Below, one piece after another: positions 1,812 to 57,531 of a stretch of DNA of 64,000 bases. The DNA is taken from contig NZ_JAPDIA010000008.1 in NCBI RefSeq assembly GCF_029525575.1, forward strand, positions 434,001 through 498,000, given 5' to 3'. This DNA comes from Cohnella rhizosphaerae (GTDB taxonomy: Bacteria; Bacillota; Bacilli; Paenibacillales; Paenibacillaceae). Each line of letters opens with the position of its first letter. The stretch's first letter is position 1. The notes below the pieces were generated by a model that did not search any database, was not told where the DNA came from, and saw only the letters and a list, made by a program, of their open reading frames with translations. Position numbers and translations under genes: made by a program.

Positions 1812-2711
1812 ATGGCGCTGAACGTGCATCAACTCCACACCTTTTACGCCGTGGCGGAAAGGGGGAGCTTTTCCGCAGCCGCCCAGACGCTGCATATGAC
1901 GCAGCCCGCGGTGACGATGCAGATTCAAGCGCTAGAGGAGCGGTTCGGGGCGAAGCTGTTCCAGCGGTCCGCGAAGAAGCTGGAGCTGACCGATGCGGGA
2001 CGCGCGCTGCTGCCGCAAGCGCGCAAGGCGATGGAGCTGATGCGGGAGACCGACGCGATCATGGCCGCGCATGCCGAACAGCTCAAGGGGCGGCTGAAGT
2101 TCGCCGCCAGCCTGACGATCGGCGAATACGTGCTGCCGAGGCTGCTCGCCCCATTTTTGAAGCGGTATCCCGGGCTGTCGCTGAGCATGCGGATCATCAA
2201 TACGTCAGAGATTATCGAGGAGATCGAAAACCACGGCCTCGCCTTCGGGCTGGTCGAGGGACGCGCGGAAGGGCCGGGCCTGCTCGCCGAGCCCGTCATG
2301 AACGACGAACTCGTGCTCGTCGCACCCGCGGGTCATCCGTTCGCGGCGCGCGGCGAGGTCGGGCTCGAAGAAGTGCTGAAGGAGCCGATGGTGCTGCGCG
2401 AGACGGGTTCCGGCACGAGGCAGGTCATGGAGGAGGAGCTTCTCCGGCATGGCGCGCAGCCTTCCGATCTGCGGGTCGTGAGCGACTTCGGGAGCACGGG
2501 CGCCGTGAAGTCGGCCGTCGAGGCGGGACTTGGACTGTCCTTCGTATCGGTATGGACGATCCGACATGAGACGGCGCTCTCGCTGCTCGCGCCGGTGAAG
2601 ATAAGCGGCGTGTCGTTTCGCCGGCAGTTCTACGCCGTTCGCCAGCAGTCGTCGGACCTGCCGATCGCTGGCGCTGCGCTGCTAGATTACTTAAGGGGGA
2701 TTCAAGCTTGA
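1812..2711 (+). CDS. LysR-family transcriptional regulator
   Basis: This 299-residue protein is a LysR-type regulator. The N-terminal winged helix (about residues 1-60) has the family pattern: FYAVAERGSFSAAAQ, then MTQPAVTMQIQALEERFG, then LFQRS. Residues 90-295 form the periplasmic-binding-like effector domain (for example LKFAASLTIGEYVLPRLL and ELVLVAPAGHPF), most like the CysL/YwfK branch. The ATG at 1812 fits the family start; an ATG at 1785 would add nine residues. A TATAAT at 1771-1776 is a probable -10. The stop overlaps the TTG start of the next gene (TTGA), so the PHP phosphoesterase is translationally coupled. The target genes cannot be read from the sequence. Confidence 0.9.
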   Translation: MALNVHQLHTFYAVAERGSFSAAAQTLHMTQPAVTMQIQALEERFGAKLFQRSAKKLELTDAGRALLPQARKAMELMRETDAIMAAHAEQLKGRLKFAASLTIGEYVLPRLLAPFLKRYPGLSLSMRIINTSEIIEEIENHGLAFGLVEGRAEGPGLLAEPVMNDELVLVAPAGHPFAARGEVGLEEVLKEPMVLRETGSGTRQVMEEELLRHGAQPSDLRVVSDFGSTGAVKSAVEAGLGLSFVSVWTIRHETALSLLAPVKISGVSFRRQFYAVRQQSSDLPIAGAALLDYLRGIQA

Positions 2712-3607
2712 ACAGAGCGGACCTGCATACCCACACGACCGCGTCGGACGGTCTTCACAAGCCGTCCGACAACGTCCGCATGGCGGCGGAGGCGGGCCTC
2801 GCCGCCATCGGCATCACGGATCACGATACGGTAGCCGGGCTCGACGAAGCGCGCCAAGCCGCCAGGACGTACGGCGTCGAAGTCGTGCCGGGCGTTGAGA
2901 TAAGCACTGCCCATGACGGCCAGGATATCCACATTCTCGGCTATTTCGCCGACGACCGCGATCCGGTATTTTTGGCGAGGCTCGCTTCCCAGCGGCGGGT
3001 GCGCGATTCGCGCAACGAACTGATCGTCGCCAGGCTGAACGAGCTTGGGGTGCGACTGTCCTGGGAAGCCGTGCTGGACGCGGCGGGAAGGGATCGAGGA
3101 CCGGACGAGACGGTCGGCAGGCCCCACATCGCCGAAGCGCTGGTGAGGATGGGGGCGGTAAGTTCGCTGCAGGAGGCGTTCGACCGCTATCTGGCCGAAG
3201 GCAAGCCGGCTTACGTGCTGCCCCCGCGGATCGCGCCGGCCGAGGCGATCGCCTGGATCCACGAAGCCGGAGGCGCAGCGGTCGTCGCCCATCCCGGACT
3301 GTACGGGGCGGACGACACCGTAGAAGCGCTGCTGCGTGACGGCGTCGCGGACGGCGTCGAGGCGTACCATTCGGACCACACGGCCGAGGACGAACGGCGT
3401 TATGCGGACATGGCGGCGCGCTACGGCGTCGTCGCGACCGGCGGTTCGGACTTCCACGGCGAGCGCAAGGGGCGGGTATATCACGGCCCGATCGGTTCGC
3501 GATCGGCCGACGCGGACGTCGTGCGCGCGCTTATGGGGAGGGCGAAGGATCGGCGGGCGGCGCGCCTGTCGGACTCGCCGGGCGACGGCGGTACTGCATC
3601 GGACTGA
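2708..3607 (+). CDS. PHP-domain phosphoesterase (TrpH/YciV-like)
   Basis: This 299-residue protein belongs to the PHP metallophosphoesterase superfamily, in the TrpH/YciV group that includes 3',5'-nucleoside bisphosphate phosphatase and 5'-3' exoribonuclease RNase AM. Metal ligands are visible in order: DLHTHTTASDG (residues 4-14), ITDHDTVAG (about 37-45), PGVEIS, RPHIAEAL, VVAHPGLYG and GGSDFHGE (about 245-252). Length and motif order fit the family. It starts at TTG 2708, inside the stop of the LysR gene. Its last 77 bases overlap, tail to tail, the end of the AraC gene on the opposite strand. The exact substrate cannot be decided here. Confidence 0.88.
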   Translation: MNRADLHTHTTASDGLHKPSDNVRMAAEAGLAAIGITDHDTVAGLDEARQAARTYGVEVVPGVEISTAHDGQDIHILGYFADDRDPVFLARLASQRRVRDSRNELIVARLNELGVRLSWEAVLDAAGRDRGPDETVGRPHIAEALVRMGAVSSLQEAFDRYLAEGKPAYVLPPRIAPAEAIAWIHEAGGAAVVAHPGLYGADDTVEALLRDGVADGVEAYHSDHTAEDERRYADMAARYGVVATGGSDFHGERKGRVYHGPIGSRSADADVVRALMGRAKDRRAARLSDSPGDGGTASD

Positions 3608-4428
3608 GGCCGTAGTAAGCGCCGAAGTGGCGCGTAAACGGATGAATCGACGGGTAACCGAGCTTGTCCGCGACGGCGGTGATCGTAAGGTCGCTCTCCC
3701 GCAGCAGTATCGCCGCTCTCCGCATGCGAAGACGATGCTGGTAGGCTTTGGGGGTGAACCCCGTTTCCCGAAGGAACAGCTCGTGAAAATACGTGCGGCT
3801 CAGTCCGCACATCTCCCACCATTCGCCGACGCGCTCGCGACGGCCGGGGTCGCGTTCGAGACGCTCCAGCAGCTTTACGATCCGGTAATCGCTCGGGCGC
3901 CGCGTATGGCGTGCGTTGTACCAGTTCAGCATCCACGCGTACATCATGCTGTTCAAAATCTCGCTGCGGTAGTAGCGGGATTGTTCGTGTGCCCCGACGA
4001 TGCGCAGCAGCTCCTCATACAGCTGCGGCTCGTCCTGGAGCGACGACACGCCGGGAAGGGCGTCCAGCTCGGCGCAGGGACCGGCGACGGAGACGGCGTC
4101 GAGCCGGAAGGGCTCGGGCGCATAAATAAAAATGCGATTGAGCGAAACCGGATTTTTGGCATCCCACAGGTCGAAGTAAAAATTGAAGGAGGCGAGCGGT
4201 CGCTCCGGCGAGATATGAAACGCATGCGGCTGGCCGGGACGCAAAAAAAACGAGCGCCCGCTTGTCGAGCGGATATCGCGCGCCTTCGATCTCCATCTCC
4301 GCTCCGCCCTCCGGAAACAGATGCATCGCGTACACGCTGCAAACCCGAAGCCCTTCGTTCGCGCTGCCGTCATAGACGTAAGGCATCAGATCGCCGAGGT
4401 AAGGCGTCATTTCGGACAGCTTTCTCAT
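3531..4428 (-). CDS. AraC-family regulator (frameshifted in an A8 run)
   Basis: Reading from ATG 4428, with a GAGG ribosome site 8 bases upstream, the first ~60 residues form a cupin-like N-terminal half (GLRVCSVYAMHLFPEGGAEM). The frame breaks in an A8 run (4243-4250 on the plus strand). With seven A the protein continues as VFLRPGQPHAFHISPERP and runs on to a C-terminal double HTH (about residues 195-290: GLSRTYFHELFLRETGFTP and YPSIHPFTRHFGAYYG). The corrected protein has 298 residues, normal for sugar-sensing AraC regulators. It is divergent from the GH95 fucosidase gene and probably controls it. The shift is most likely a sequence error. The 3' end overlaps the PHP gene. Confidence 0.82.
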
Positions 4429-4499
4429 AACTGAAACCTCCATGCGTTAGAAAATGACCGGATGAATCGTCAAATTAGTGGATGCGCTAACAAATACGA

Positions 4500-54614: not shown

Positions 54615-55304
54615 TTAAAACAGCTCGCCTTGCTCTTCGTCAGGCACGAGGCAGCCGGGATCGTCGTTGGTTACGTTGCCGACACGGCGATTGGCCGGGT
54701 CGACGACGAGCTCAGCCGGATCCAGCGGAATCGCGAGCTGAAGGACTTCGTCGGGACGCTGGATCCGGCGGTCGAGCCATGCCGCCTCGGACCGCCGGTT
54801 CAGGATGACGGGCACGCGGTCGTGGATGTCGGCCAGATGTCCCTTTGCAGGCGCGGTCAAGATGGCGCATGTACGGAGCCTCGAGCCGTCCGGAGCGGTC
54901 CACGATTCGTAAATGGCGGCCATGCTGAACAAGGCTCCGTCCTTGCGGCGAATTCTCATCGGACGCTTGCCGCCCGCGGTCTGCCGCCATTCGTAGTAGC
55001 CGTCGGCCGGGATGAGGCACCGCCTGCGTCGCAGCGCTTCCCGGAAGGCGGGCCGCTCCGCGACGGTCTCGACCCTGGCGTTCAGCATCTTGCCGCCGAC
55101 CTTCGGGTCTTCGGCCCAAGGCGGAACGAGCCCCCACTTGAGCAGGCCCAGCCGGTTGCGGGAGCCGTCGCTGACGATCGCGGGAACCAACTGCCCGGGC
55201 GCGATATTGTACCGGGGGCCGTAGGGCGAGCCGGCGGCGTCGTCGGCCGAATAATAAGCGAGCAGTTCCTCGAACGAAATCGTGATCGTATAACGTCCGC
55301 ACAT
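54615..55304 (-). CDS. SOS response-associated peptidase (YedK/HMCES family)
   Basis: This 229-residue SRAP-domain protein forms a thiazolidine crosslink with abasic sites in single-stranded DNA and shields them. The essential Cys2 (MCGRYTITI), the NIAPGQLVPAI segment, WGLVPPWAED with downstream NARVETVAERPAFREAL, the active-site Glu in DGYYEWRQT, and the His in ILT..HDRVPVIL are all visible. It lies on the minus strand 117 bases after a small gene with two LexA-like boxes in its promoter, and could be transcribed from that SOS-type promoter. A candidate promoter of its own is not evident. Confidence 0.93.
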   Translation of the reverse strand: MCGRYTITISFEELLAYYSADDAAGSPYGPRYNIAPGQLVPAIVSDGSRNRLGLLKWGLVPPWAEDPKVGGKMLNARVETVAERPAFREALRRRRCLIPADGYYEWRQTAGGKRPMRIRRKDGALFSMAAIYESWTAPDGSRLRTCAILTAPAKGHLADIHDRVPVILNRRSEAAWLDRRIQRPDEVLQLAIPLDPAELVVDPANRRVGNVTNDDPGCLVPDEEQGELF

Positions 55305-55420
55305 CCGCGTGCCACCTACTCTCTCTCGTCAAGGCAGTCCTCGTATAGAAAGTAGTATACCCGAAAGGCCGCGGCGTGCGAAGAGAAGGCCGGCGGACAG
55401 CGGGAGCGCCAGCCTCCCGT

Positions 55421-55627
55421 TCAGGAGACGCTATGCTTCACCGGCCGGGCGCCCAGAATGCGGCTCGCGGACAGCGTGCGAAACGCCCGTTTTCCCCAAT
55501 CCAGCACGCGCACCTTGCCCCCGCGCACCGAAAATATCGCGACCGTTCGCTGGGTCAAGCGTCCTTTGCTGTCCTCGTAAATCATTTCCACGCTTTTCCC
55601 GACATACTTTTCGATATCGACCTGCAC
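55421..55627 (-). CDS. Small conserved hypothetical protein behind LexA-like boxes
   Basis: This 68-residue protein has a short beta-rich fold by pattern: VGKSVEMIYEDSKGRLTQRT, then VAIFSVRGGKVRVLDWGKRA, then basic FRTLSASRILGARPVK. The IYEDSKG..T.R.V..F....G....D...RAFRTL pattern resembles the C-terminal half of WYL ligand-sensing domains, but no WYL regulator body is present. The start GTG 55627 is preferred since AAGGAGG lies 7 bases upstream; an ATG at 55633 is too close to that site. Two GAAC-N4-GTTC boxes lie 42-78 bases upstream, so SOS induction is likely. The function is unknown; DNA-damage response is an inference from the boxes and the YedK neighbour. Confidence 0.65.
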   Translation of the reverse strand: MQVDIEKYVGKSVEMIYEDSKGRLTQRTVAIFSVRGGKVRVLDWGKRAFRTLSASRILGARPVKHSVS

Positions 55628-55668
55628 GGCCATTCCTCCTTGCGCCTCGGAGAAGCGAGGTTTGTTGT

Positions 55669-55705
55669 AGAACGTCTGTTCTTATAATAATACGAACTTA
55701 CGTTC
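55669..55705 (-). promoter_or_regulatory. Two tandem LexA-type (SOS) boxes over a promoter
   Basis: GAAC-GTCT-GTTC (55670-55681) and CGAAC-TTAC-GTTCC (55692-55705) match the Gram-positive LexA consensus CGAAC-N4-GTTCG closely; their centres are 23 bases apart. On the minus strand TTGTAC and TATTAT with an 18-base spacer form a promoter whose spacer holds the second box. Repression by LexA of the genes at 55627 and perhaps 55304 is inferred. Confidence 0.7.
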
Positions 55706-55861
55706 CTGTACAAGAGGAAAAATAAGCGGCGGATCCAGCCAATGCGCAGCAGCTCTATTTTGAGATAGGTAAATATTAATTACAAAATTCTTTTGGGTCT
55801 ATTTCGAATATCGCATTGAACCTGCATTATCAACCCCGTATAATATGAAAATGGGAATTAA

Positions 55862-55984: not shown

Positions 55985-57531
55985 GTGGAACGGGACTATT
56001 CCGCGAACATCCTCGTCGTCGGCGACAATCCGGCGCATTCGCTTGCGATCGAAGCCGCACTGGACGGCGAACCTTATCGATACGTCCGCGCAAGCTCCGG
56101 GATCGAAGCGGTTCGCTGTCTGCTGCGCGAGGAGATCTCCGTCATCCTGATCGACGTTCATATGTCGGGCATGTCCGGATTCGAGGCGGGCGGCTATATC
56201 AAGTCCCACGGCAGATTTGAATTCATACCGGTCATTTTTATATCCGGAGCCGTCGCGGATGCCGATCATCTGGCGACCGGCTATTCCGTCGGCGCTGTCG
56301 ACTATTTGATCAGACCGATCAATCCGCTCATATTCAAGGCCAAGATCAAGGTTCTGGCAGGACTTTACGGCGAACGGAGAAGTTCAAGCCTGCAGCCGCG
56401 TGAGCCGGCAGGCTTGAACCGGGAGACCGCGCAGGCAGCGGCGCAGGCTCGCGCGGTGCTGGACACTTCCATCGACGCGATGCTGGTGCTTGATGCGTCT
56501 GGCGTCATTTTGGAAGCGAACCCCGCAGCCGCCCTTATGTTCGGGTACGACCATGGCGAATTGCACGGGCTCCCCCGTATCGCTGCTGCTCCCTTCGGCC
56601 GAGCGTACGGGCGCACATCGGAACCCGCCGTTCGGCAAGCTGATGGAAGCGGAGCCGCGCCGCAAGGACGGCACGTCCTTCCCCGCCGAGGTCCACTGGG
56701 GCATGGCCGCCGGAGATCCCGGATTGCTGGCCTGTACCGTTCGCGATATTACGCGCCGCAAGCAGTCGGAGCAAGCATTGCGCGAAGCGAAGGAAGCGGC
56801 CGAACGGATTTCCCGGGCGAGGATGGCATTTTTGACCTTCATGAGCCACGAAATCCGCACGCCCCTGAACGGCATTATAGGGATGCTGGACCTGCTTCGC
56901 GAATCCGGACTGACGTCCGAACAGGCAGAGCTGGCAGAGATCGTGGCCAATAACGGCAATACGCTTTTGAAAATCGTCAACGACGTGCTGGATTTGTCCC
57001 GGATCGAAGCCGGCCGGATGGAGCTGGAGCAGGAACTCTTTTTTGCTGGATAACTGTCTGGATGAAGTCGGAAAAATGTTCACGGCCCAATTGCGCGAAA
57101 AAAAACTCGCCTATACGGTTGCCGTCGAACCCGGCGTTCCCGAACGCGTCCGCGGGGACCGATTCCGTCTGCAGCAGATTCTCATCAATCTGGTCGGCAA
57201 TGCGGTGAAGTTTACGGACAAAGGCGGCATCAGCGTGCGGGTAAGCGTGCTTGAAGAGACGGATAAGCGGGTCGCGCTCGAATTCGTCGTGAAGGATACC
57301 GGCATCGGCGTCGCCGCTGATGAGATCGACCGGCTGTTTTTGCCTTTCTCGCAGGCGAACGTCTCGACGACCCGCAAGTACGGCGGCAGCGGATTAGGGC
57401 TGTCGATCTGCAAAACGTTGTGCGAGCTCATGGAAGGAAGCATCCGCATAGAACCGTCCGGCGAACCCGGCACGGTTTTCGTTTTTTCCGTGCGCTTCGG
57501 CAAAAGCGATCCGAAGGTTCCGCAGGAATGA
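55985..57531 (+). CDS. REC-PAS histidine kinase (two homopolymer frameshifts)
   Basis: This is a soluble sensor kinase with an N-terminal receiver. Residues 1-130 are REC (ANILVVGDNP, phospho-Asp in ILIDVHMSGMSGFE, Lys position replaced in DYLIRPINPL). About 150-260 is PAS (VLDTSIDAMLVLDASGVILE). HisKA follows with FMSHEIRTPLNGIIGMLD, then HATPase (LINLVGNAVKFTDKGGI, DTGIGV, GGSGLGLSI). The frame breaks at C5 (56572-56576) and T6 (57039-57044). Removing one base from each gives 514 continuous residues. No transmembrane helix is visible. The start GTG 55985 follows GAGGAGGGG. With no terminal receiver, it may pass phosphate to an unlinked regulator. Confidence 0.82.

Follow-up and report, generated by a model that had tools for sequence, protein, structure and literature searches.

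A small LexA-controlled WYL-type protein beside an SRAP gene in Cohnella rhizosphaerae: a probable remnant of a Gram-positive mutasome operon

The WYL superfamily has been characterised by four basic residues lining a groove and by a position that is often Cys (PMC4012209). In two of its members, particular residues have been tied to the binding of single-stranded DNA (ssDNA). Changing R181, the group R181/R204/R208, or the pair R211/R214 abolished ssDNA binding in PafB (PMC11804915), while R464, R491, R495, R498, and R501 were named for the same function in a model of the Pif1 WYL domain (PMC9964779). YolD (YqjX; PF08863), the proposed Gram-positive counterpart of UmuD, has likewise been placed in the WYL superfamily and carries a WYL-like SH3-type barrel (PMC4012209, PMC6511836). 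Y-family polymerases of the YqjW/UvrX kind have been placed together with RecA and an arm of the YolD type, and a third variant of this arrangement, “Cohnella abietis YhjD”, has been described (PMC12926913). The occurrence of SRAP genes near mutagenic polymerases is also already known (PMC3765255).

The locus considered here lies within a stretch of 64,000 nucleotides of the Cohnella rhizosphaerae genome (hereafter the window) and comprises a gene for a small WYL-type protein, called mini-WYL in what follows, and an SRAP gene. Its features are as follows.

55694..55705, minus strand: LexA box 1, GAACGTAAGTTC on that strand (forward-strand reading CGAACTTACGTTC at 55693-55705), between the -35-like and -10-like elements
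55684..55713, minus strand: promoter-like element of the mini-WYL gene, TTGTAC or TGTACA, 17 nt, TATTAT (9/12 matches), spanning box 1
55670-55681, minus strand: LexA box 2, GAACGTCTGTTC (minus-strand reading GAACAGACGTTC), immediately downstream of the -10-like element
55421..55627, minus strand: mini-WYL gene, 68 aa from GTG 55627 (70 aa if read from ATG 55633)
55404..55433, minus strand: junction of about 30 bp where relatives hold about 1.9 kb (polymerase and arm-protein gene)
55354..55382, minus strand: promoter-like element before SRAP, TTCGCA, 17 nt, TATACT (9/12 matches)
54615..55304, minus strand: SRAP (YedK/HMCES-like) gene, 229 aa, Pfam SRAP PF02586 at E 2.8e-69

A first, sequence-only reading of this DNA had proposed two LexA-like boxes over a minus-strand promoter, followed by a 68-residue protein and an SRAP-domain protein. 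Both boxes are indeed present, albeit with a start-to-start spacing of 24 bp and with the one at 55693-55705 displaced by one base from the position first given. A promoter-like pair overlies them as proposed (TGTACA, 17 nt, TATTAT), the SRAP assignment stands, and the length of 68 residues is likely right because the start (ATG) of the relatives aligns with GTG 55627. These relatives are five Cohnella in which the small protein is 84-85% identical (L006-L010, L079-L083); L001-L004 were omitted from the comparison, being taken as the same genomes as L006-L009. At the site of box 1, all five hold GAACGCTAGTTC, an exact box occupies the site of box 2 in 5/5, and the -10 region and the ribosome-binding site are kept along with the boxes. 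The mere number of LexA-type boxes in the window (2 observed against 1.09 expected, with two or more in 30/100 shuffles) is not significant and was dropped as evidence; the boxes are significant because of their placement and conservation. Boxes of the same form lie 72 bp 5' of the start of recA (recognised by eye) in the same genome, and at 1268332 and 1268365 of contig C9 by lexA (PF01726 match at C9:1268431).

Across the genus, an exact GAACNNNNGTTC was found no more than 350 bp upstream of 83 of the 88 mini-WYL copies, two such boxes in 56 of them, and in 48 of these 56 the spacing was 24-26 bp; flanking DNA taken as a control held 13 boxes in 306,644 bp, or 0.015 per 360 bp. Of the five copies lacking an exact box, L166 has a one-mismatch box, two are broken, and one runs off its contig; the fifth is L138. 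Among 40 loci from other genera of the family, 25 had exact boxes and 15 had boxes with one mismatch, 25-76 bp upstream of the start, the start codons here and in the genus having been chosen by a simple script. With a box matrix trained on Cohnella boxes, the best upstream score was at least 9.0 in 40/40 of these loci, and the best score in the downstream kilobases did not exceed 9.0 in 38/40; in L239 the downstream score (15.3) surpassed the upstream one (10.2). Of the 20 loci taken from the wider class, 13 had exact and 7 had one-mismatch boxes within 500 bp, and in all 20 the highest upstream score (5.9 to 25.6) lay above the highest downstream one. Both the 40 and the 20 loci were picks from the matched places and not random samples. 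A LexA operator thus lies over the promoter of the mini-WYL gene and is conserved in relatives, and the SOS-type control originally suggested for this gene is, as judged from operator conservation, well supported.

Two further places in the same genome carry LexA-like boxes, 29 and 38 bp before transposase-like genes (L041 at ~1614, C6:525613; L046 at ~1401, C9:1473400). By their look we take these to be IS1595-type transposases, and their transposition may be tied to SOS. Elsewhere in the window, at 55985-57531, a response regulator/PAS coding region and histidine-kinase-like pieces (recognised by eye) are spread over several frames, as frameshifts or assembly errors would produce.

The mini-WYL is by no means confined to this species. 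A single-sequence search recovered it from all but one of the 37 genus genomes, in the 88 copies mentioned above. The sequence listing leaves out 7 of these copies, which are broken, truncated, or uncertain in their start, and the residue alignment leaves out 8. A profile of 45 sequences, hand-picked from 79 unique genus sequences and applied at E up to 0.001, found it in 339/394 genomes of the family (15/19 genera) and in 320/392 sampled genomes of the order (39/49 genera), with at most 15 candidates scored per genome, and, across the class, in 40/91 of those sampled, 33 of them being among the 84 from outside the order; a few matches in each of these three counts lie near the threshold. One of the 33 is doubtful, namely G533 (E 1.8e-4), where the match falls in a 349-aa frame that is maybe an ordinary larger WYL protein. 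The mini-WYL also occurs in plasmid (7) and Paenibacillus phage (20) records. The product is named “hypothetical protein” in 4/7 and 18/20 of these respectively, two others read “putative DNA binding transcriptional regulator”, and three had no gene listed. On plasmid pPC03, the gene lies beside a YolD-like gene. Paenibacillus larvae phages carry the mini-WYL as well, and the copy of phage Fern (L290 1501-1698) sits between YolD-like and MarR-like genes near the integrase. A search of NCBIfam left the small protein unnamed, PHROGs placed the window protein in a single family of unknown function (phrog_6785), and the titles and abstract openings among the literature matches listed described no single-domain WYL protein under LexA.

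As to its fold, an AlphaFold2 model built from only five sequences (pLDDT 88.5, pTM 0.72) shows a short helix followed by five strands, i.e., a five-stranded barrel of the SH3/Sm type that characterises the WYL superfamily. The top Foldseek matches of this model were WYL domains (best E 3.0e-3, TM by query up to 0.78), none of them at E 0.001 or below, and VIA-align returned BrxR (Z 9.0 over 68 residues), PafBC (Z 9.0 over 67), CapW with ssDNA (Z 8.9 over 66), and DriD with ssDNA (Z 7.4 over 66), with Hfq/Sm folds nearly equal at Z of about 8. The window protein itself had no match to Pfam WYL at E up to 1; 28 of the 45 genus members had one (best 6.1e-4), and of three members from outside the genus one passed the Pfam WYL cut-off of 21.8 bits (25.7) with the other two just below it (21.3 and 20.7). 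There is no W-Y-L motif, the spacing-aligned place being occupied, by eye, by G39-K40-V41. This does not exclude membership because conservation of the motif across the superfamily is not strong (PMC4012209). The often-Cys position may correspond to position 45, which is Cys in 27/39 other-genus sequences and Asp in the window. Likewise, R29, K48, R52, and R58 are candidates for the basic groove residues of PMC4012209. The mini-WYL is therefore predicted with confidence, on the strength of the model, to be a whole small single-domain barrel of the WYL/SH3/Sm type. The initial description as part of a WYL domain was right in kind.

The YolD/YqjX proteins invite comparison as small SOS-operon proteins that are, like the mini-WYL, linked to Y-family polymerases. 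The mini-WYL nonetheless differs from them in that it has no polymerase-inserting N-terminal arm (its first strand starts at residue 14 of 70, with nothing arm-like before it) and does not match their profile: 0/45 members matched PF08863 at E up to 1, as against 15/15 YolD sequences from mini-WYL loci at E up to 0.1, and a profile-profile comparison by hhalign gave a probability of 0.4%. Genuine YolD genes are sometimes encoded next to it. The notion of a split YolD, in which the mini-WYL would supply the barrel missing from the arm protein, was dropped given these mismatching profiles and the full or barrel-only YolD proteins that adjoin the mini-WYL. An apparent fusion of mini-WYL and YolD arm at L275 was also rejected, as frame-shifted YolD-like remains follow it and the arm-like stretch is out of frame in another genome of the same genus.

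The mini-WYL has the barrel fold and most of the basic ssDNA-contact positions in common with the WYL domains of DriD, PafBC, CapW, and the thermophilic Pif1. In contrast to these, it stands alone, is mostly about 61-77 aa long, lacks an HTH, a WCX domain, or a helicase, and is preceded by LexA boxes. In a weak HMM alignment to 8bnv_A (E 0.24), judged by its residue numbers to be the Pif1 of PMC9964779, R29, K48, R52, S55, and R58 fall on R464, R491, R495, R498, and R501; the correspondence with the PafB residues was drawn by spacing alone. Over 117 sequences, R29 (basic in 95% of Cohnella and 100% of other-genus sequences) and R52 (97% and 95%) are nearly invariant, whilst R58 (86% and 49%) and K48 (91% and 26%) vary more outside the genus. 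At position 55, a basic residue occurs in 32% of the Cohnella sequences and in 85% of those from other genera; the window has Ser there, at a place taken in PafB and the Pif1 WYL domain by an Arg that ssDNA binding requires or is proposed to require. The fold matches and the kept basic positions support the earlier suggestion of a barrel that possibly binds nucleic acids. From the kept ssDNA-contact residues, an ssDNA-binding accessory induced together with a polymerase is therefore proposed.

Such a polymerase is seen in the relatives. Behind the same boxes, the gene order in 5/5 is mini-WYL, Y-family polymerase (Pfam IMS, E 1.4e-39 in L079), arm protein, and SRAP, and the start of the polymerase gene overlaps the mini-WYL by 11 nt in every one of them, which makes translational coupling of the two probable. 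In the arm protein (209 aa in L079), a YolD-like arm at the N-terminus is followed by a further domain, and the Pfam scan put no name to the protein. We infer from the genus, the arm motif, and the gene order that it is probably “arm-YhjD”, the Cohnella variant of PMC12926913, and that the polymerase and arm-protein pair behind the mini-WYL is probably that of the Cohnella abietis YhjD mutasome; the main-text passages of that paper mention no WYL protein at the head of the YhjD-variant operon. The polymerases behind the mini-WYL are likely, if putatively, of the YqjW/UvrX subtype.

The polymerase and arm protein that mark a mutasome operon are both missing from the window and are found together in 5/5 of the nearest relatives. 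By blastn against L079, positions 2580 to 4484 of the flipped L079 sequence stand opposite 31 bp in the window, with both ends aligning. It is simpler to assume that the window lineage lost the genes, because a polymerase and a YhjD-like gene recur behind the mini-WYL in the genus (32/88). On this comparison, the direct pairing of mini-WYL and SRAP in the window arose by deletion of the two middle genes, and the partnership with SRAP is a by-product of gene loss. The own genome holds two matches to Y-family polymerases, none of them in the window. One of the two belongs to a paralogous operon on contig C4, which also has a pair of boxes, a lone LexA DNA-binding domain, a paralogue of the mini-WYL, and an arm protein.

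With its polymerase and arm genes gone, the window's mini-WYL could itself be a decaying leftover with no present role. Other copies do decay, such as that on contig C5 of the same genome, which contains a stop, and the Ser at position 55 would fit. Its dN/dS against the five relatives (0.12-0.16) is also somewhat above most ratios among the relatives themselves (mostly 0 to 0.08, with one of 0.32 resting on two changes), all of these being pairwise values that mix the time before and after the gene loss. These ratios are still far below 1, the frame is open, and the operators and ribosome-binding site are intact, so that we consider decay a decidedly improbable account of the gene.

The SRAP protein shows nothing unusual and is an ordinary member of the SRAP/YedK/YoqW family; it has the SRAP domain and, beginning with MCGRYT, the N-terminal Cys2. 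What is unusual is its place, directly behind the mini-WYL. The sequence-only reading had seen in the two genes a small damage-response operon, and had named among its grounds for refutation a lack of the boxes in relatives and a separate, non-SOS promoter for SRAP. The boxes are indeed kept in relatives. The window, however, is the only one of the 88 genus copies in which the next recognised same-strand gene is SRAP and nothing recognised intervenes. In L157 and L171, mini-WYL and SRAP are separated by a polymerase and a YhjD-like gene on the opposite strand. The promoter-like element before SRAP is conserved too, with TATACT in 5/5 relatives and TTCGCA in 4/5 (absent from L081), and the box scan of the window found no exact LexA box upstream of the gene. 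This answers to the second of those grounds, and SRAP is at best partly under LexA control here. Between the two genes, the search for a terminator yielded a hairpin that is rich in GC but has no U run; at z -1.19, and with 21/200 shuffles folding equally well, no terminator is claimed from it. A second SRAP copy of the same genome (C9:1156351-1156960) was matched as two overlapping pieces in different frames.

It may still be argued that the two genes form a dedicated SOS unit whose products act jointly on abasic sites in ssDNA. Both have stayed intact at low pairwise dN/dS (0.10-0.12 for SRAP against the five relatives) despite the lost middle genes, SRAP follows the polymerase and arm gene in the five relatives, and it also lies downstream in L257, behind an HTH gene. 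Yet the direct pairing is seen once in 88 genus copies and there as the product of a deletion, SRAP has its own promoter-like element, and an exact LexA box lies within 400 bp in only 8 of the 28 other SRAP loci of the genus that were parsed (30 examined). There is accordingly little to commend a two-gene unit, and we regard it as very doubtful.

The commonest recognised partners of the mini-WYL are the polymerase, YhjD-like, and YolD genes and not SRAP. A same-strand Y-family polymerase was found in 32/88 genus loci, all 32 with a YhjD-like gene and 29 with the arm motif; YhjD-like or YolD-type genes without a polymerase were found in 19/88, and 33/88 copies had none of the searched partners. 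The corresponding figures for the 40 loci of other family genera were 3 with a polymerase, 11 with YolD, 9 with an HTH gene, and 20 with none, a few of the loci in these tallies being shortened by contig ends. A repeat of the tally with clean queries shifted one Cohnella label from polymerase+YhjD+YolD+arm to polymerase+YhjD+arm and left the main figures as they were. Since 33/88 genus copies and 20/40 other-genus copies are partnerless, the mini-WYL cannot always depend on a linked polymerase.

This leaves room for the mini-WYL as a free-standing SOS effector, for example a sensor of ssDNA or nucleotides that modulates transcription or the replisome independently of any polymerase and merely shares a good LexA promoter. 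The partnerless copies speak for it, as do the stand-alone LexA DNA-binding-domain or other HTH genes that adjoin several copies and the fact that several published WYL proteins are transcription regulators. Against it stand the recurrent linkage to polymerase, arm-protein, and YolD genes in Cohnella, in other genera of the family, and in other Bacilli, the YolD linkage in plasmid and phage, and the 11-nt overlap with the polymerase in all five relatives. We hold a free-standing effector to be unlikely, though not far-fetched.

Proteins of ~70 aa consisting of a LexA DNA-binding domain without the protease domain lie beside the mini-WYL in L035, L130, L152, L160, L165, L174, L271, and L287, as recognised by PF01726 (E 4.5e-13 in L035 and 1.8e-17 in L287), by phmmer in five other Cohnella loci, and by eye in L271; that of L035 (C4:572000-580000 of the same genome) lies directly behind two LexA boxes. 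They are possible non-cleavable dampers of the SOS response. A different small HTH protein follows the mini-WYL in 9/40 other-genus loci, e.g., L257 (4-298, a weak HTH_36 match) and L259.

Taken together, we favour, at a probability of about 0.6, the reading that the mini-WYL is an SOS-induced, ssDNA-binding accessory of a Gram-positive Pol V-like mutasome and that the window holds the remnant of an operon encoding one; both its ssDNA binding and its partnership with the polymerase are inferred. LexA bound to the two operators over the promoter would keep the mini-WYL silent until damage-triggered cleavage of LexA released it, as the conserved operators suggest. In the relatives, the same mRNA would next encode the Y-family polymerase and then the protein with the YolD-like arm, a type of arm that has been proposed to insert itself into Y-family polymerases, with SRAP coming last behind its own promoter-like element. 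The mini-WYL would most likely bind ssDNA at stalled forks through its basic groove and help to target or regulate the polymerase at damaged forks. In the window lineage, the comparison indicates that the polymerase and arm gene were deleted, leaving the mini-WYL, its operators, and SRAP intact. There, the mini-WYL might, speculatively, act in trans on the mutasome operon of contig C4 or, alternatively and just as speculatively, alongside SRAP at abasic sites in ssDNA.

A wider proposition, which we offer tentatively and at less than even odds, is that the mini-WYL represents an undescribed LexA-controlled family of single-domain WYL proteins, present in Bacilli and carried also by some of their phages and plasmids, and that it forms the ssDNA-sensing subunit of the Gram-positive Pol V-like mutasome. 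If true, this would be a WYL domain whose target is a DNA polymerase rather than a transcription factor, a helicase, or a CRISPR effector. The interest of the locus accordingly lies in the unnamed mini-WYL family and not in the pairing of mini-WYL with SRAP. Gram-positive SOS mutagenesis proceeds without UmuD. The mini-WYL, which in Cohnella often heads polymerase operons, offers a small and concrete candidate for the part that is missing, whether for sensing damage or for targeting, and makes the question of UmuD-less mutagenesis directly testable.
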